Below, in pieces: positions 1 to 46,460 of a stretch of DNA of 47,044 bases. The notes beneath the pieces were generated by a model. That model worked only from the letters and a program-made list of their open reading frames with translations, searched no databases and was not told the origin of the DNA. Position 1 is the stretch's first letter. Each line of letters begins with the position of its first letter. A program made the translations under genes and the position numbers. Origin of the DNA: an uncultured Apibacter sp. (GTDB lineage Bacteria > Bacteroidota > Bacteroidia > Flavobacteriales > Weeksellaceae). The DNA lies in contig CALYQD010000018.1 of the NCBI GenBank assembly GCA_945280365.1, positions 1 to 47,044 on the forward strand. Direction: 5' to 3'.

Positions 1-38
1 GTTAGTTTTAAGCCCCATTTTTATTATGGGGCTTTTTT
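1..38 (+). ncRNA. Small RNA unit 0, 3' end only
   Basis: The window opens inside a copy of the repeated RNA. Positions 1-11 match the end of the core, followed by a perfect 9-bp terminator stem (10-18 with 26-34) and a T-run to 38. The promoter and 5' part would lie about 40 to 60 bases before the window start. Confidence 0.6.
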
Positions 39-100
39 ATTCTTATATATTTTTTAATTTGATCTTATTAAAACTAATTATATCTTATTTAACATCCAAA

Positions 101-120
101 AATATTATATTTATAATATA
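101..120. promoter_or_regulatory. Inverted repeat upstream of small RNA unit 1
   Basis: AATATTATA and TATAATATA flank a TT centre, about 60 bp before the predicted transcript start. The same element appears at 302-321 and 503-522 (perfect 9-2-9 repeats) and at 704-723 (two changes). Its position is constant relative to the promoter in units 1 to 4. It could be an activator site, although sigma-54 activator sites usually lie further upstream, or it could be repeat background in AT-rich DNA. Confidence 0.35.
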
Positions 121-143
121 TATATAATTAATAATTAATATTA

Positions 144-159
144 TGGCATAAATTTTGTT
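144..159 (+). promoter_or_regulatory. Sigma-54-like promoter, unit 1
   Basis: TGGCATAAATTTTGTT fits the -24/-12 consensus TGGCAC-N5-TTGC: GG at 145-146 and TTG at 155-157, with the canonical spacing. The predicted start is about 170, two bases before the invariant core. The TTTTG also gives a 6 or 7 of 8 match to the housekeeping -7 element TAnnTTTG, so the sigma factor is not certain. Confidence 0.55.
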
Positions 160-169
160 TTTATTCAAT

Positions 170-237
170 TGTTCATAAGGCAGTGAATTTTCATAGTAGT
201 TAGTTTTAAGCCCCATTTTTTATTATGGGGCTTTTTT
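170..237 (+). ncRNA. Small RNA unit 1, about 68 nt
   Basis: Predicted transcript from the sigma-54-like start to the end of the T-run. The core at 172-209 can form a 5-bp 5' hairpin closing an eight-base loop that contains AAGG, followed by an unpaired stretch rich in U, A and G. The terminator stem is AAGCCCCAT paired with ATGGGGCTT, then six T. There is no credible reading frame: stops occur in all plus-strand frames. Function is unknown; multicopy sigma-54 small RNAs (Vibrio Qrr) and tandem small RNAs (cyanobacterial NsiR1) are formal precedents, not homologues as far as can be seen. Confidence 0.65.
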
Positions 238-345
238 ATTCTTATATATTTCTCCCAATTCAATTTCATTTAAGCTAATTATATCTTATTTAATACCAAA
301 AAATATTATATTTATAATATTTATACATATATAAAATAAATATTA

Positions 346-361
346 TGGCATGAATTTTGTA
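346..361 (+). promoter_or_regulatory. Sigma-54-like promoter, unit 2
   Basis: TGGCATGAATTTTGTA, with GG and TTG at the same spacing as unit 1 and 14 bases between the -12 position and the invariant core. Predicted start about 372. The inverted repeat at 302-321 is centred 60 bp upstream of it. Confidence 0.55.
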
Positions 362-371
362 TTAATACAAT

Positions 372-438
372 TATTCATAAGGCAGTGAATTTTCATAGTA
401 GTTAGTTTTAAGCCCCATTCTTATTATGGGGCTTTTTT
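372..438 (+). ncRNA. Small RNA unit 2, about 67 nt
   Basis: Core at 374-411 identical to unit 1. The 5' hairpin closes with an A-U pair instead of the G-U pair of unit 1. Terminator stem 410-418 with 426-434 is a perfect 9 bp, followed by a T-run to 438. Confidence 0.65.
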
Positions 439-546
439 ATTTTTATATATTTTTTTGAATTCAATATATTTAAAACTAATTATATCTTATTTAACATTCA
501 AAAATATTATATTTATAATATTTATACATATATAAAATAAATATTA

Positions 547-562
547 TAGCATAAATTTTGTC
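547..562 (+). promoter_or_regulatory. Degenerate sigma-54-like promoter, unit 3
   Basis: TAGCATAAATTTTGTC: the first G of the nearly invariant -24 GG is changed to A, while the -12 TTG is kept. This would be expected to weaken a sigma-54 promoter. Confidence 0.4.
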
Positions 563-572
563 TTTATATAAT

Positions 573-639
573 TATTCATAAGGCAGTGAATTTTCATAGT
601 AGTTAGTTTTAAGCCTCTTTTTTATTATAGGGCTTTTTT
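573..639 (+). ncRNA. Small RNA unit 3, possibly decaying
   Basis: Core at 575-612 is still identical, but the terminator stem has shrunk to five Watson-Crick pairs plus one G-U (611-616 with 630-635), and the promoter -24 element is mutated. It may be a weakly expressed or dying copy. Confidence 0.5.
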
Positions 640-747
640 ATTTTTTTATATTTCCTCCAATTTAATTTTATTTAAGATAATTATATCTTATTTAATATCC
701 AAAAATATTACATTTATAACATTTATATATATATAAAATAAATATTA

Positions 748-763
748 TGGCATGAGTTTTGCT
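748..763 (+). promoter_or_regulatory. Sigma-54-like promoter, unit 4 (best match)
   Basis: TGGCATGAGTTTTGCT matches the -24/-12 consensus at both dinucleotides, including the GC at -12 that the other units have as GT. Predicted start about 774. Confidence 0.6.
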
Positions 764-773
764 TATATATAAT

Positions 774-840
774 TATTCATAAGGCAGTGAATTTTCATAG
801 TAGTTAGTTTTAAGCTCCATTTTTATTATGGGGCTTTTTT
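774..840 (+). ncRNA. Small RNA unit 4, about 67 nt
   Basis: Core at 776-813 is identical. One stem base has changed from C to T at 816, which leaves a G-U pair, so the 9-bp terminator stem (812-820 with 828-836) is preserved. This fits selection on structure. Confidence 0.65.
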
Positions 841-1161
841 ATTTTTTCATACGATTTAAAAATGCTTATTATTAAACATTTTATAATTTATTCCCAATAA
901 TTATATATATTATATAATTATATATACTATTCTTTTATTTTTGTAATAAATAATATATCAAATTATTCAGATTTTATTTTATTAATAATTAATCCTGATC
1001 TTAAAAAAATAATAATATCATCTTTAAATAATATCACTATCGTCAATCGAAATGTTGATTATTTATATTATTTTTTATTAAAAAGTAATTTAATTATATT
1101 AAATTTAATATTTATAAGTTATTTTTACAATAAATTACATTTATAGCAAAAAAAAACATTA
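841..1161. other. Long spacer before unit 5, possible decayed sequence
   Basis: This spacer is about twice the normal length, so one unit may have been lost here. On the plus strand one frame is open from 901 to a stop at 1144-1146. In the same frame an ATG at 862 is separated from it only by a TAA at 898-900. The encoded sequence is dominated by I, L, N, Y and K, as expected from AT-rich DNA, but includes a less biased stretch around 990-1070. I do not recognise it, and it may be chance. Confidence 0.3.
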
Positions 1162-1177
1162 TGGCATGAATTTTGTA
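1162..1177 (+). promoter_or_regulatory. Sigma-54-like promoter, unit 5
   Basis: TGGCATGAATTTTGTA, identical to unit 2 and again 14 bases from the core. The sequence further upstream is unrelated to the other units, so the match survives where the background has changed. Predicted start about 1188. Confidence 0.6.
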
Positions 1178-1187
1178 TTAATATAAT

Positions 1188-1254
1188 TGTTCATAAGGCA
1201 GTGAATTTTCATAGTAGTTAGTTTTAACCCCGCTTTAACGCGGGGTTTTATTTT
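1188..1254 (+). ncRNA. Small RNA unit 5, with a different terminator stem
   Basis: Core at 1190-1227 is identical. The terminator stem is replaced: AACCCCGC (1226-1233) pairs with GCGGGGTT (1240-1247), a perfect 8 bp with a new sequence, followed by a T-rich tail. Core and promoter are kept while the hairpin changes sequence but not structure. This is the best evidence that the array makes discrete terminated RNAs. Confidence 0.7.
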
Positions 1255-1313
1255 ATAAAAAAACTACAATTTATTTTTGTTATTTTATAACATTATAACA
1301 ATATTATACTATA

Positions 1314-1916
1314 TTATTCAAAAAGATTAGTAATATTCCCATTATTAATTACAAAGCTCTCTTTAATAAGATCAAAATTAACAGCATCTATTGCTTTGGT
1401 TGCATTCTCAATTATAAAAGTTTTAAACCCTAACTCTAACGCATCCTTTGCTGTATAATAAACACAATAATCAGCAGCAAGTCCACATACATATACTTCA
1501 CTTATTTCTCTGCCTTTAAAAAAATCCCCTAATCCGGTACATTTTAGTTTACCATTGTCGAAAAATCCACTGTAACTATCAATATTTTTATTCATACCTT
1601 TTCTAAAAATAGCCTCAATTCTATTTTGACTTAGATCTGAAGATATTTCTGCGCCAAATGTACCCTGTATACAATGATCCGGCCATAAGATCTGCTCCAT
1701 ACCTAGTAAATCTATTTTTTCATAAACATTTTTGCCTTGATGTTGAGAGGCAAAACTTCTATGATCATTAGGATGCCAGTCTTGAGTAGCTACAACTAAA
1801 TCGAATTTTCCCTGAATTTTATTGATTATCGAAATAATTTCATTTCCACCATGTACAGCTAACTTCCCCCCTTGAAGAAAATCATTTTGCATATCGACAA
1901 TTATTAATGCTTTCAT
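1314..1916 (-). CDS. pncA: Nicotinamidase (isochorismatase family)
   Basis: Hydrolyses nicotinamide to nicotinate and ammonia in NAD salvage; cytoplasmic. The 200-residue length is normal. The expected catalytic triad is visible as D8, K106 and C151 (in GLAADYC), and the metal ligands as D46 and H48 (in TQDWHP) and H81 (in WPDHC). The gene is divergent from pncB, which uses its product, across a 160-bp shared upstream region; a TAnnTTTG element for this strand lies at 1939-1946. Its 3' end faces the last small RNA unit. The identification is secure; pyrazinamidase activity is an expected side reaction of the family. Confidence 0.93.
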   Translation of the reverse strand: MKALIIVDMQNDFLQGGKLAVHGGNEIISIINKIQGKFDLVVATQDWHPNDHRSFASQHQGKNVYEKIDLLGMEQILWPDHCIQGTFGAEISSDLSQNRIEAIFRKGMNKNIDSYSGFFDNGKLKCTGLGDFFKGREISEVYVCGLAADYCVYYTAKDALELGFKTFIIENATKAIDAVNFDLIKESFVINNGNITNLFE

Positions 1917-2076: not shown

Positions 2077-3246
2077 ATGATAATTAAGCATTTTACAGAC
2101 AACGATTTATATAAATTTTCAGTAATGCATGCCATTCAAAGATTATATCCATGGGCATATGTTAGATACGATTTTATCAATCGCGGTAAAAATAATTTTC
2201 CAGATGGTTTTGCAGATAGGTTGAAAGAAGAAATTAATAAAATGATCAGCTTAAAACTATCAAATGATGAAAAAAATTATATTTTAAAAAGATGCTACTT
2301 TTTAGACCCATTTTTTGTTGATTTTTTAGAGGGTTATAGATACAATCCTAATGAAGTTCATGTATCTCAAGAAGGTGGAAATCTTAACCTATATGTAGAA
2401 GGATATTGGTATAGAACTGTGTTATGGGAAGTTCCTCTAATGGCTATAATTTCAGAATTATATTTTGAAATGATTGGCTCAAAACCTAAAGATATTGAAA
2501 TAAAAGCTAAAGAAAAGGCTAAAGGACTAAAAGATTTACAAGCAGACTACTCTGAATTCGGAACCCGAAGACGTTATTCATTTGAAGTACAGGATAAAGT
2601 AGTGGGGGTATTAAAGGAAAATTCTGATAAATACTTTAAAGGGACCAGTAATGTTTATCTAGCTATGAAATATAATACTACTCCTATCGGAACTATGCCT
2701 CATGAATGGTTTATGTATCATGGAGCTCTATTTGGTTATCGATCCGCTAATATTAAAGCACTCGAAGCATGGGTAGATGTTTTTCAAGGTAGCTTGGGGA
2801 TTACTTTAACAGATACCTATACAACTCAATCATTTTTTAAATCGTTTAATTTAAAACTGGCTAAATTGTTTGATGGAGTCCGTTGTGACAGTGGAGATCC
2901 AATAGAATTTACAGAAAATACTATTAATTTTTATAAAAAAAATAGAATTGATCCTTCTTCTAAAACTATTGTGTTTAGCGATTCATTAAATTTAGCTGAA
3001 GTAAAAAAAATAAAAGAACATGTCAAAGATAGAATCCACGACACTTATGGTATTGGAACGTATTTATCTAATGATGTAGGCGTAAAGCCTCTTAACATGG
3101 TGATTAAATTAACCCATGTAAAAGAAAAACCAAATGATGAATATTTAAATGCAGTGAAACTATCTGACGTTTTAGGTAAAAATACAGGTGACGAAAATGA
3201 AATTAACTTTAGTAAACTATCATTAGGATTAAACGAAAATTATTAA
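2077..3246 (+). CDS. pncB: Nicotinate phosphoribosyltransferase
   Basis: Joins nicotinate with phosphoribosyl pyrophosphate to make nicotinate mononucleotide, the second salvage step after PncA. The 389-residue length is typical of the bacterial form. Landmarks are the N-terminal TDNDLYKFS, the SEFGTRRRYSFE block near residue 160, and GTMPHEW with H209, the position of the histidine phosphorylated by ATP in this family. A conserved CDSGDP motif binds the phosphoribosyl group. With divergent pncA the pair recycles nicotinamide. The ATG start follows a -7 element at 2036-2043. Confidence 0.95.
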   Translation: MIIKHFTDNDLYKFSVMHAIQRLYPWAYVRYDFINRGKNNFPDGFADRLKEEINKMISLKLSNDEKNYILKRCYFLDPFFVDFLEGYRYNPNEVHVSQEGGNLNLYVEGYWYRTVLWEVPLMAIISELYFEMIGSKPKDIEIKAKEKAKGLKDLQADYSEFGTRRRYSFEVQDKVVGVLKENSDKYFKGTSNVYLAMKYNTTPIGTMPHEWFMYHGALFGYRSANIKALEAWVDVFQGSLGITLTDTYTTQSFFKSFNLKLAKLFDGVRCDSGDPIEFTENTINFYKKNRIDPSSKTIVFSDSLNLAEVKKIKEHVKDRIHDTYGIGTYLSNDVGVKPLNMVIKLTHVKEKPNDEYLNAVKLSDVLGKNTGDENEINFSKLSLGLNENY

Positions 3247-14396: not shown

Positions 14397-15923
14397 TTAT
14401 TGAACATTGATAAGTATCGGTGAAATACTTTGTTGAGATATTCCTGAAGCAGTTGCAGCGATATCAAATATTAATACTTGATCTCCCGATTTTAAACCTT
14501 TAAGATAATCAGCAGCAGCTCTCAATGAATTACCAGAATATGGTCTTGCAGCCGCACCTGGTCTTTTCAATTTGAATCCTGTTACATTAAATGTAACCGG
14601 GAATTCGAAATCCGGTATAGCAGCAGATACAGTTTGATTAGGTACAGAGCTACCTGGCATACTTACAACATTTGCTCCACGTATAGTTCCTTGTGCTTTT
14701 GGTACATTTTTAATTCTAAACCCTACAGTAGTAGAAACTGTTTTTCCTGAAGATGTTTTTCCTGAAATTGTAAATGATGTCGTTGTGCCTGATCCGGCTT
14801 TATAAATCCACCCTTTACCAGATTTTGATAGACTACCATTAGATGTGGTCATACTTATTGTTGATGCATCTACACCGGTAACCGAACCACTCATTGGATT
14901 ATCAACTCCCCTATAAACAACATTCATTTTATCTGCAACAACTGTACCGCCTGTCGGTAAATCCTTAACAACATCTTGAACAACTTCGTAAGTTTCATTA
15001 AATTTTTCAGTTTTTATCCCTCCTGGAGTTTGATAAGATATATTTCCTGATAAACTTTGTTTTCCTATACCCGAAGCTACCATATTAACAACCGCTTTTC
15101 CACCTGATAAAGGAATATTACGTCCGTTTAATGTAATTGATCCTTTAAGAGTGTTATCATAGGCTCCAAAACCGATTACAACATTGAATTTTTCTCCTGC
15201 TCTAACGAATTTTGGAGCGGATACTATAGGTACAAATGCTTTCAATTCTATTTCATCTTCAAGTTTATTAGCTAATAAATCTCTAACCCTATTTCCTTCT
15301 TCCGTTCTAATATTAGATTCTAATCTTGTTAGATTTGTTAGTGCAGAAATCATAGGTTGATCATAAAATTGATTTACAACCCAAGGTTTATTTTGTTTAT
15401 CTGAAAAATCGAACAATTGCTCAATTCTCATTTTTGCATTTTCTCCTGCTCCTTGAAGTATAAATTTTGTAAAGTTTTGAACTTTCGTAATCATCTCTTG
15501 TACCTCCTTAGTTGGAGTGTTATCATTAACAAAGAATACTTTATTAACTACATCTGTATTTTGAAGAGAATTATAGTTTGTTTCTTCTCCCGCGGAAGGA
15601 GGTCTATAGTCAGCTATTTCTGTAAGATTCTTTTTAACATTTTGAATCGCATCTATAGCTTCTTTTGCTTGATTTTTTACTTCATCGGACTTTTTAGCTA
15701 TTTCCTCATATCCTTCTTTTCCTTCAGCTTTTTTAGCCTCTATCTGTTCGTAAAAGGTTTTATTATTTTCATCAGTTAATTTTGTGGATAATTGCAAGGA
15801 TTCATTAATTCCTTCAAAAGAACGCAAAATTTCTCTATCCACATTCATTGCCAGCATTGATATAAACACTAAATACATTAGGTTTATCATCTTCTGGCGT
15901 GGTGTCTGTTTTCCTGCTGCCAT
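14397..15923 (-). CDS. gldM: Gliding motility/type IX secretion protein GldM
   Basis: 508 residues. The single N-terminal membrane helix is visible in MINLMYLVFISMLAMNVDRE (about 12-31), after a short cytoplasmic KQTPRQK stretch. A long helical segment (to about 210) and beta-rich domains follow, as in GldM, which spans the periplasm as a dimeric shaft linking the GldL motor to the GldK-GldN ring. The length is close to the usual 510-520. Spaced 31 bp from gldL and 27 bp from gldN. Confidence 0.95.
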   Translation of the reverse strand: MAAGKQTPRQKMINLMYLVFISMLAMNVDREILRSFEGINESLQLSTKLTDENNKTFYEQIEAKKAEGKEGYEEIAKKSDEVKNQAKEAIDAIQNVKKNLTEIADYRPPSAGEETNYNSLQNTDVVNKVFFVNDNTPTKEVQEMITKVQNFTKFILQGAGENAKMRIEQLFDFSDKQNKPWVVNQFYDQPMISALTNLTRLESNIRTEEGNRVRDLLANKLEDEIELKAFVPIVSAPKFVRAGEKFNVVIGFGAYDNTLKGSITLNGRNIPLSGGKAVVNMVASGIGKQSLSGNISYQTPGGIKTEKFNETYEVVQDVVKDLPTGGTVVADKMNVVYRGVDNPMSGSVTGVDASTISMTTSNGSLSKSGKGWIYKAGSGTTTSFTISGKTSSGKTVSTTVGFRIKNVPKAQGTIRGANVVSMPGSSVPNQTVSAAIPDFEFPVTFNVTGFKLKRPGAAARPYSGNSLRAAADYLKGLKSGDQVLIFDIAATASGISQQSISPILINVQ

Positions 15924-45035: not shown

Positions 45036-46460
45036 ATGATAAAAACGGCGATTTCAATATGGGAAGCTTGTCTACAGTATATCAAAGATAATATCTCTGA
45101 GAAATCTTATTTCACATGGTTTCAACCGATAAAAGCCGTAAAGCTTCAAGATAAAATTTTAACAATTCAAGTACCTAGTAAATTTTATTACGAATATCTT
45201 GAAGAAAATTATATTAAAATAATCAAAAGTGCTTTAACTAAAAATCTTGGAAAAGATGCAAAATTGGTTTATTCCATTATGATGGAAAAGAACCAACAAA
45301 CAGATGCTTCTTTTACAGTAAATATACCAAGTTCGCAAAAAGCACAAATCAAGCTTCAGGAAGTTGAAGCTCCTCTATTTATTGAAAGAGGATCTATAAG
45401 TCCATTTGCAGTTCCCGGGTTACAAAAAGTAAAAATTGATAGCCAACTCAATACTAATTATACTTTCGAGAATTTTATTGAGGGAGATTCTAACCGTCTG
45501 GCTCGATCAGCAGGAAAACAAATTGCAAAAAGACCTGGTGGAACTTCTTTCAATCCATTATTTATTTATAGCAGTGTTGGATTAGGTAAAACTCATTTGG
45601 CCCATGCTATTGGCTTAGAGGTAAAGAAAATACAATCTGAAAAAACAGTTTTGTATGTTTCAATGGAAAAATTTTGTCAGCAATTCCAAGAGGCTACTAA
45701 GTCAAATAATAGAAATGATTTTATGCACTTCTATCAAATGATTGACGTTCTAATAGTTGATGACATTCATTTTATATCTGGCAAAAAAGGTACACAAGAA
45801 GTTTTTTTCCATATTTTCAATCACCTTCATCAAAACGGAAAACAAATTATTTTAACTTCTGACAAATCCCCTGTTGATATTCAAGATGTCGAACAACGGT
45901 TAATTTCACGTTTTAAATGGGGACTTTCCACTGAAATTCAAATTCCTGATTATACTACAAGACTTGCAATTCTTCAGCAAAAAATGGAATTTGATGGGAT
46001 TGAGCTTTCTGAAGAAGTATTAGAATATATTGCTAAAAATATAAAAACTAATATAAGAGAGCTTGAGGGATCTTTAAATTCAATTATTGCTCAGGCTACT
46101 TTTAATAAGAAGGAAATAACATTAGAACTTGTTGAAAAGACACTATCAAACCTTATTACCAATTCGAAAAAAGATATTACAATTGAATATATTCAAAATC
46201 TAGTTTGTGACTATTTTAAAGTATCTATAGATGCATTACAGTCTAAAACTAGAAAAAGGGATATTGTACAGGCAAGACAGTTAGCCATGTATTTTGCCAA
46301 GAAATATACCAATGCGTCTCTTTCTTCAATCGGATTTCAAATAGGAAAGAGAGATCATGCTACTGTACTACATGCCTGTAAAACTGTTGACAATTTATTT
46401 GAAACTAATAAGTTATTCAAATCCTATGTTGACGAATTAAATAAAAAATTGACATCTTAG
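45036..46460 (+). CDS. dnaA: Chromosomal replication initiator DnaA
   Basis: 474 residues. An N-terminal domain (1 to about 90), then the AAA+ core with Walker A SSVGLGKTHL (K185) and Walker B VLIVDDIHF, the sensor region ISRFKWGLSTEIQ, and the C-terminal DNA-binding domain with RDHATVLHACKT. The first two glycines of the usual GGVGLGKT are serines here (S179 and S180), so the GxxxxGK pattern is broken at its first position. Otherwise full-length. It overlaps a possible operon with the phosphatase gene two bases downstream. Confidence 0.95.
   Translation: MIKTAISIWEACLQYIKDNISEKSYFTWFQPIKAVKLQDKILTIQVPSKFYYEYLEENYIKIIKSALTKNLGKDAKLVYSIMMEKNQQTDASFTVNIPSSQKAQIKLQEVEAPLFIERGSISPFAVPGLQKVKIDSQLNTNYTFENFIEGDSNRLARSAGKQIAKRPGGTSFNPLFIYSSVGLGKTHLAHAIGLEVKKIQSEKTVLYVSMEKFCQQFQEATKSNNRNDFMHFYQMIDVLIVDDIHFISGKKGTQEVFFHIFNHLHQNGKQIILTSDKSPVDIQDVEQRLISRFKWGLSTEIQIPDYTTRLAILQQKMEFDGIELSEEVLEYIAKNIKTNIRELEGSLNSIIAQATFNKKEITLELVEKTLSNLITNSKKDITIEYIQNLVCDYFKVSIDALQSKTRKRDIVQARQLAMYFAKKYTNASLSSIGFQIGKRDHATVLHACKTVDNLFETNKLFKSYVDELNKKLTS

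Follow-up and report, generated by a model that had tools for sequence, protein, structure and literature searches.

What is encoded by the short repeats that open contig CALYQD010000018.1 of an uncultured Apibacter species (assembly GCA_945280365.1), and what could their product do in the cell? The stretch analysed, hereafter the window, is 47,044 nucleotides (nt) long (positions 1 to 47,044 of the forward strand). A first-pass annotation, made from the letters alone, had read its beginning as a tandem array of terminated small-RNA (sRNA) genes with sigma-54-type promoters and an invariant core. Our analysis upholds this reading in its essentials: the region is very likely a tandem array of small-RNA genes, and their product is most likely one regulatory RNA of about 65 nt that acts in trans.

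Architecture of the array and of its predicted RNA

Five complete units stand head-to-tail at the start of the window, each consisting of a −24/−12 box, a core and a hairpin with a T-run (Table 1). The 38-nt core, TTCATAAGGCAGTGAATTTTCATAGTAGTTAGTTTTAA, is identical in all five, with core-to-core spacings of 202, 201, 201 and 414, and positions 1-41 form the 3′ part of a sixth unit. A covariance model of the RNA finds the five units with E-values of 2e-14 to 4.6e-11, two of them being among the sequences behind the model, and matches the sixth with its 5′ end cut. In the window's genome (G000), a 32-nt core pattern with up to three mismatches has eight matches, against none for a reversed-letter control. 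The promoter box follows the strict pattern TGGCAY-N5-TTG in units 1, 2, 4 and 5 and is one base off in unit 3, so the earlier statement that each unit has its own promoter holds strictly for four of the five. Unit 3 also has the weakest fold (−8.3 kcal/mol) among 40 Apibacter units.

The count of at least five units plus a partial one is correct for the window, and more cores are found at the end of another contig of the same genome, C6: at 124864 (one mismatch), 125577 and 125779 (in a unit cut by the contig end), with decayed cores at about 124556 and 125393, in an array stretch of 124556-125826. Both the end of C6 and the start of C18, the window's contig, fall within a unit; the array therefore probably extends past the contig break, and the assembly break lies inside it. 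Such arrays are not an assembly artefact, because two relatives with 6 copies (G006) and 11 copies (G007) are single-contig genomes.

Judged from the −12 box, transcription would start at about the base before the core, which gives the predicted length of about 65 nt. The RNA would begin with a short 5′ hairpin (6 base pairs in Apibacter), continue with the unpaired linker UUUCAUAGUAGUUAGUUUUAA and end in an intrinsic terminator; in minimum-energy folds, 37 of the 40 Apibacter units form the hairpin NUUCAU-AAGGCA-GUGAAU, followed by this linker and the terminator. The 40 units come from 8 genomes and are also those from which our first covariance model, R1, was built; a 41st was excluded, as C6 ends inside it. 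Outside Apibacter, the typical RNA is GATTCTCATGTTTAATTTGAGTTTTCATGGTTATTAGTTTTTA plus terminator.

Conservation follows the RNA body. Between genomes, the cores are 98.1% identical, the stretch from promoter to start 62.8%, and the 80 nt upstream 39.0%, compared with 37.6% for shuffled letters. Five decayed cores (4-8 mismatches) were found in Apibacter arrays, four of them without a promoter. Of 28 alignment rows, 19 have C-G and 9 have U-A at pair 37-54 of the 5′ stem, and the pair is broken in none; U-A is the form of the nine Apibacter rows and C-G that of the other genera. The outer neighbour of this pair is unpaired in 11 of the 28. The terminator stem has changes on both sides in 6 of 7 pairs, and its covariation score was reached by none of 500 shuffles, in an alignment with two partly misaligned registers (81.1% of cells paired). 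The number of pair types in this stem is ordinary (291 of 500 shuffles as high), a point on the other side. That the 20-nt linker is the same behind all promoter types suggests that it is the RNA and not the DNA that is kept. The paired changes, and the preservation of the body while the spacers resemble shuffled letters and the promoter type varies, bear out the proposal that the invariant core acts as RNA.

Table 1. Features at the start of the window
Feature	Position	Strand	Remark
3′ end of an additional sRNA unit (end of the core, terminator hairpin, T-run), truncated by the contig start	1..47	+	model positions 60-106
Unit 1 sigma-54-type promoter, TGGCATAAATTTTGT	144..158	+	
Unit 1 predicted sRNA: core 172-209, terminator hairpin 210-231, T-run 232-237	171..237	+	start placed 12 nt past the −12 box
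Unit 2 sigma-54-type promoter	346..360	+	
Unit 2 predicted sRNA: core 374-411, hairpin 412-432, T-run 433-438	373..438	+	
Unit 3 sigma-54-like box	547..561	+	TAGCAT for TGGCAT
Unit 3 predicted sRNA: core 575-612, weak terminator 613-633, T-run 634-639	574..639	+	
Unit 4 sigma-54-type promoter	748..762	+	
Unit 4 predicted sRNA: core 776-813, hairpin 814-834, T-run 835-840	775..840	+	
Unit 5 sigma-54-type promoter	1162..1176	+	
Unit 5 predicted sRNA: core 1190-1227, hairpin 1228-1245, T-run 1246-1249	1189..1249	+	
Convergent neighbour, isochorismatase-domain protein, nicotinamidase-like	1314..1916	−	
NAPRTase gene, beyond the isochorismatase-domain gene	2077-3246	+	

In G006, G007 and G008, too, a gene related to the convergent neighbour lies beside the array, and the same is seen by eye for G004. 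Elsewhere in the window, Pfam recognises a GldM gene (type IX secretion/gliding; 14397-15923) and dnaA (45036-46460).

Distribution and promoters in Weeksellaceae

The 32-nt core pattern (up to three mismatches) occurs in 8 of the 9 genomes of the genus and in none of 90 others in the same search; among named genomes, a pattern search matched Apibacter adventoris, A. muscae, A. mensalis and two metagenome-assembled genomes labelled Flavobacteriaceae. R1 also recovers a copy in the ninth, G004, where it stands alone between a sigma-54 activator gene and a nicotinamidase-like gene. With a second model, R2, built from 28 sequences, all nine genomes carry the RNA, in 1 to 11 copies: 11 in G007, 8 in G000, 7 in G008, 6 in G006, 5 in G003, 4 in G002, and one each in G001, G004 and G005. 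Apibacter, a genus with bee-gut symbionts among its members and with described strains from honey bees and a bumble bee (PMC5913662), is placed in the Weeksellaceae, Flavobacteriales, and the RNA is found throughout much of this family. R1 at E 0.05 matches 219 of 296 family genomes, and R2 at E 1e-4 matches 264 of the 296, in 27 of 33 genera and with 1-7 copies per genome outside Apibacter. Twenty listed misses of R2 fall in genera g8, g10, g18, g21, g28 and g29 (12 more were not listed); R1 at E 0.05 has weak matches in g10, g18 and g21. In a search of 296 genomes of the order at E 0.01, the 48 genomes with a match all belong to Weeksellaceae. Absence of the core from related genomes, which the first-pass annotation held would refute its reading, is thus not what we found.

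No Rfam family matches the window at gathering score, and relaxed thresholds, applied to the array and to the loci of eight relatives, gave sub-threshold matches only. The RNA is common to most of the family and has no Rfam family, nor did we find a report of it in the open-access literature, in which most candidates were judged from listings. At 11 of 21 loci outside Apibacter (L077, L078, L080, L083-L089, L092) the sRNA is divergent from the same gene of 138-139 amino acids (aa), which by eye we take to encode nucleoside diphosphate kinase. Some genomes of genus g20 carry three copies within about 1-2.3 kb. A weaker model match (ATCTGAGAATATTTTTAAAG...TTTTTTCATTTTAATCCTC...) recurs in g20 clusters (L229, L230 and L231, near 2254, 2113 and 3067) and is perhaps a diverged sister RNA.

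In Apibacter, control by sigma-54 is likely, with the strict box present in 36 of the 40 units, in agreement with the promoter type first proposed. Over the family, the promoter varies while the RNA body is retained. We classified the boxes before 66 model matches in 56 loci (64 distinct), taken from the best matches of two model searches and seven hand-picked clusters, so that the following counts are not population shares: 29 are strict sigma-54 boxes, 13 have a −24 box with TTTC at −12, 16 are of the form TAnnTTTG (sigma-A-type), and 6 are of other kinds. L104 and L114 seem to have sigma-54 boxes shortened by one base, which the pattern expressions misclassed. All 16 sigma-A-type boxes come from g20, presumably Chryseobacterium, and the many g20 copies behind such promoters tell against sigma-54 control as a property of the RNA throughout the family. 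Across promoter types, the linker departs from its constant sequence by one base in a single L231 copy, and in L075, which has the Apibacter form. For Flavobacterium psychrophilum, TAnnTTTG has been reported as the sigma-A box (PMC9723704).

Two strong sigma-54 activator domains were found in every genus genome; in G005, one of the two is incomplete and lies close to a contig end. In the window's genome they belong to a 393-aa receiver-AAA protein without a recognised DNA-binding domain and to a 440-aa AAA-Fis protein, the latter flanked by genes that we take to be miaB-like and lptE-like. At locus L026 (1261-2442), a receiver-plus-AAA sigma-54 activator stops directly past the AAA lid, with no DNA-binding domain recognised. 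Inspected by eye, the regions upstream of the units have no common activator site, a point against activator-driven transcription; in the stretches extracted for this comparison, five G006 units and one G002 unit had just 17-27 nt before the promoter. The little upstream room and the lack of a common site would fit an activator without a DNA-binding domain.

What else sigma-54 serves in these genomes bears on the inducing signal. The pattern has 11 sites in G000, 10 in G006 and 15 in G007, of which array units make up 6, 6 and 10, and the reversed pattern has 2, 5 and 1. Of the remaining sites, compared by eye, one is shared by G000, G006 and G007 before a Transgly_assoc gene, and G000 and G007 share three more: before an outer-membrane-barrel-like gene whose protein is below the Pfam cut-off, before an Asp-Al_Ex permease gene, and within a gene. 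G006 has single sites before ExbB/ExbD and ribulose-phosphate epimerase genes. A perfect box in G007 (G007:C1:458617, L021) lies 2.7 kb before the array and is followed by no immediate long frame but, by eye, by a seemingly broken coding sequence. Behind 13 inspected boxes other than array units, no nitrogen-assimilation gene was recognised by eye; 7 of the proteins were run against Pfam, shared ones as one copy each. In F. psychrophilum, the sigma-54 set comprises chaperones, envelope stress and gliding functions, plus the RNA Rfp36 (PMC9723704). Because the other shared boxes precede envelope and transport genes, and in view of the F. psychrophilum set, we lean, tentatively and short of conviction, towards an envelope-type signal; the hint at nitrogen limitation in the first-pass annotation finds no backing in these data.

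Probable pairing at start codons and competing explanations

The complement of the linker, AAAACTAACTACTATGAAAA in Apibacter and AAAACTAATAACCATGAAAA elsewhere, is centred in both cases on ATGAAAA, and sequence comparison suggests that pairing at start codons is probably the main action of the RNA. The linker is likely to be a pairing region for translation starts of the form AACTAATAACC-ATG-AAAA, or AACTAACTACT-ATG-AAAA in the case of Apibacter, to which it is complementary. Such pairing would likely keep ribosomes off a set of mRNAs, many of which encode exported proteins.

The best candidates lie outside Apibacter. In 20 such genomes, AACTAATAACCATGAAA with up to two mismatches has 137 matches, compared with 56 for the reversed pattern, and ordinary ATGAAA starts account for part of the excess. 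Among 31 exact matches, 26 are model matches, that is, copies of the sRNA itself, and three of the remaining five span a gene's start codon with 17 exactly matched nt. The genes are, in G049, a lipoprotein-like frame of 76 aa with 21 nt of complementarity across the start, a 63-aa peptide frame in G104 with 20 nt and two neighbouring paralogues with weaker sites, and a response regulator with a LuxR-type helix-turn-helix domain in G039 with 20 nt including one wobble. Two exact matches were discarded as targets, L238 as probably a decayed antisense copy (35 bits) and L239 since it opens a frame of only 4 codons. The G104 locus (L241) holds a trio of short paralogous genes for peptides (MKNKKL...) that by eye resemble precursor peptides; in each, a stretch complementary to the linker is found at the start or shortly before it. 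With wobble pairs allowed, complementarity at starts reaches 22 nt in L246 (G016), 22 in L259 and 20 in L258 (the latter two in G104). We inspected 58 loci outside Apibacter, 18 around exact or one-mismatch matches beyond the model list and 40 of 43 around two-mismatch matches with at most one non-wobble mismatch; of their 60 matches, 20 lie at the ATG of a frame 50 aa or longer, and by eye many of these frames begin like signal peptides. When 288 and 318 predicted starts were sampled, pairing of the linker was stronger at starts than within genes. In the number of pairings at or below −8 kcal/mol, the real linker surpassed 57 of 60 shuffles in the first sample and 60 of 60 in the second, UUUUCAU being kept in all shuffles.

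Several results weigh against start-codon pairing. No orthologue recurs among the 58 loci, except a phage-coat-like gene in G043 and G012, where the site is 17 nt before the ATG. In G007, 7 and 8 of 60 shuffles match the mean and the 5th percentile of the pairing energies, and the linker of the other genera pairs better with the starts (mean −7.65) than the genome's own (−7.13), so that no fine co-adaptation is seen there. In six Apibacter genomes, AACTACTATGAAAA with one mismatch has 102 matches, 46 of them in the array region, and the 56 left compare with 68 for the control. Inspection of 16 Apibacter regions (18 matches) gave no target; the gene that recurs in four genomes, presumably dnaN, has an internal site. 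A lean towards exported proteins in the pairing (p 0.0009 in G049, p 0.12 in G007) vanishes within starts encoding MK-, and this bias was rejected. A LacI-like gene, the best sampled pairing of G007 (−16.3), was also dropped as a target, as it pairs well only there and in G008 (−18.6), with −10.1 to −12.6 in four other genus genomes and no match in three. AACAACTATGAAAA also begins a repeated gene family in G002.

As for protein partners, no Hfq family protein was found in 40 genomes, including the nine of the genus, with a control positive in 5 of 14. An RRM-1 protein is present in 9 of 9 genus genomes (one match in eight, two in one) and in 14 of 25 overall, and this protein rather than Hfq is the candidate partner in Apibacter. 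Among 7 further genomes of the family, 4 gave no match to it, and three of these 4 (G009, G010, G013) carry the sRNA; this too counts against a partnership throughout the family.

The same protein is at the centre of the strongest alternative, in which the copies act as a decoy that soaks up an RNA-binding protein, such as the RRM-1 protein, with mRNA pairing secondary. There is precedent in the CsrB-type RNAs, which soak up CsrA. High copy number in some genomes, a linker and hairpin that are invariant with the linker unpaired, and the one or two RRM-1 matches per genus genome would all suit a decoy, as would the binding of the FopS sRNAs to the RRM-1 protein RbpB (PMC11697453). However, outside Apibacter the copy number is between one and five in nearly all of the matched genomes listed, each RNA has a single linker and no series of sites, there are start codons that the linker matches over 20 nt, and no RRM-1 protein was found in three family genomes that have the RNA. 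The exact start-codon matches shift the balance slightly from the decoy to start-codon pairing, and we consider the decoy unlikely.

Less probable still is a Qrr-like sRNA of quorum sensing or nitrogen limitation. Qrr sRNAs are under sigma-54 control, depend on Hfq and act on the mRNAs of quorum-sensing regulators. The array resembles them in its strict sigma-54 promoters, several copies per genome and intrinsic terminators, and the genome encodes a receiver-type sigma-54 activator, a relative of which adjoins the single sRNA copy in G004. The first-pass comparison holds for promoter type and copy number only: the Rfam family RF00378 has no match in the window at gathering score and none up to E 1 in positions 1-1300 (a match on the opposite strand of L096 reaches 24.5 bits against a threshold of 50), no Hfq was found in any of the 40 genomes searched, and the other sigma-54 boxes do not point to nitrogen assimilation. 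The Vibrio copies are distal and not in tandem, and in another phylum (PMC4211561). The Rfam and Hfq results rule out membership of the Qrr family.

A short peptide as the conserved product (MFNLSFHGY* in most other genera, MNFHSS* from GTG in Apibacter, both frames stopping at the same TAG by eye) is very improbable: in five loci (L077, L080, L087, L095, L096, by eye) the frame is destroyed by changes in the loop or by a missing ATG while the stem arms stay, and we reject this micro-open reading frame. Equally improbable is a role as DNA alone, with the units being a repeat family or a promoter trap for sigma-54 that makes no functional RNA. The tandem repeats in an AT-rich gap with an assembly break inside would suit this reading, whereas the conserved block runs from past the promoter to the terminator, shows matched-pair changes and persists behind unlike promoters.

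Relation to known systems and implications

By analogy, the array may work like that of NsiR1 in Nostoc, and the RNA, acting at start codons with an RRM-1 partner, like the FopS paralogues of Bacteroidota. NsiR1 is about 60 nt long and has 12 tandem copies, each with its own promoter, a trait also found in the Apibacter array; its seven central copies are identical with diverged edge copies, and its action was predicted and tested at a translation initiation region (PMC9045159). The likeness is one of description only: NsiR1 belongs to another phylum and other gene neighbours, has a DIF1 HetR-dependent promoter, and one of its copies is antisense to hetF (PMC9045159). FopS of Bacteroides thetaiotaomicron, compared in the same way, comprises 14 paralogous sRNAs with an R1 seed sequence, reported pairing near start codons and an RRM-1 partner, but is reported to have intergenic, antisense and 3′-untranslated-region genes with sigma-ABfr promoters and not a tandem array (PMC11697453). 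The boxes in Apibacter are of sigma-54 type, and sigma-A-type boxes are limited to the 16 g20 matches among the 64. Long complementarity at starts is seen in some other genera, with none confirmed in Apibacter and no recurring orthologue, and an RbpB-type protein is encoded in every genus genome but gave no match in 4 of 7 other family genomes. Together with the three-copy clusters of g20, the FopS paralogues narrow the earlier remark that no array like this one was known in Bacteroidota. Rfp36 of F. psychrophilum, a putative regulatory RNA of the same order with a sigma-54-type (SM4) promoter (PMC9723704), can be compared by description only, R2 having no match outside Weeksellaceae among the 296 order genomes. 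The Brt RNAs of Bartonella are a genus-specific family, of nine related, clustered RNAs, but are 194-203 nt long and each is followed by a gene for a DNA-binding protein (PMC5387305). The RNA described here belongs to no known family among those tested. Multicopy sRNAs are known already; the combination of sigma-54, tandem copies, no Hfq, a family-wide RNA and promoter switching was met nowhere in the literature searched.

In Apibacter, the RNA might be switched on by a sigma-54 activator and serve as the RNA branch of an envelope-type response, and its dose might be raised by the tandem duplication; whether dose is the reason for the array seems to us evenly balanced. A broader picture, doubtful as a whole, would make this family-wide sRNA of Weeksellaceae the Bacteroidota counterpart of the sigma-E envelope-stress sRNAs, fired by sigma-54 without Hfq, with an anti-start-codon linker that lowers exported proteins and chosen regulators. 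The Apibacter arrays would then be a dose dial, and a Chryseobacterium-like lineage would have moved the RNA under housekeeping promoters.

Few small RNAs of Bacteroidota have a known function, and this one is easy to recognise and has a clear promoter signature. It is a concrete output of sigma-54 in Apibacter, where over half of the sites matched by the pattern in the three scanned genomes are array units, and the three start-codon matches in other genera are testable targets. With 1 to 11 copies within one genus, sister species lend themselves to comparing how the number of sRNA genes acts, and the occurrence of the same RNA body under sigma-54 and sigma-A-type promoters shows the rewiring of a conserved RNA.

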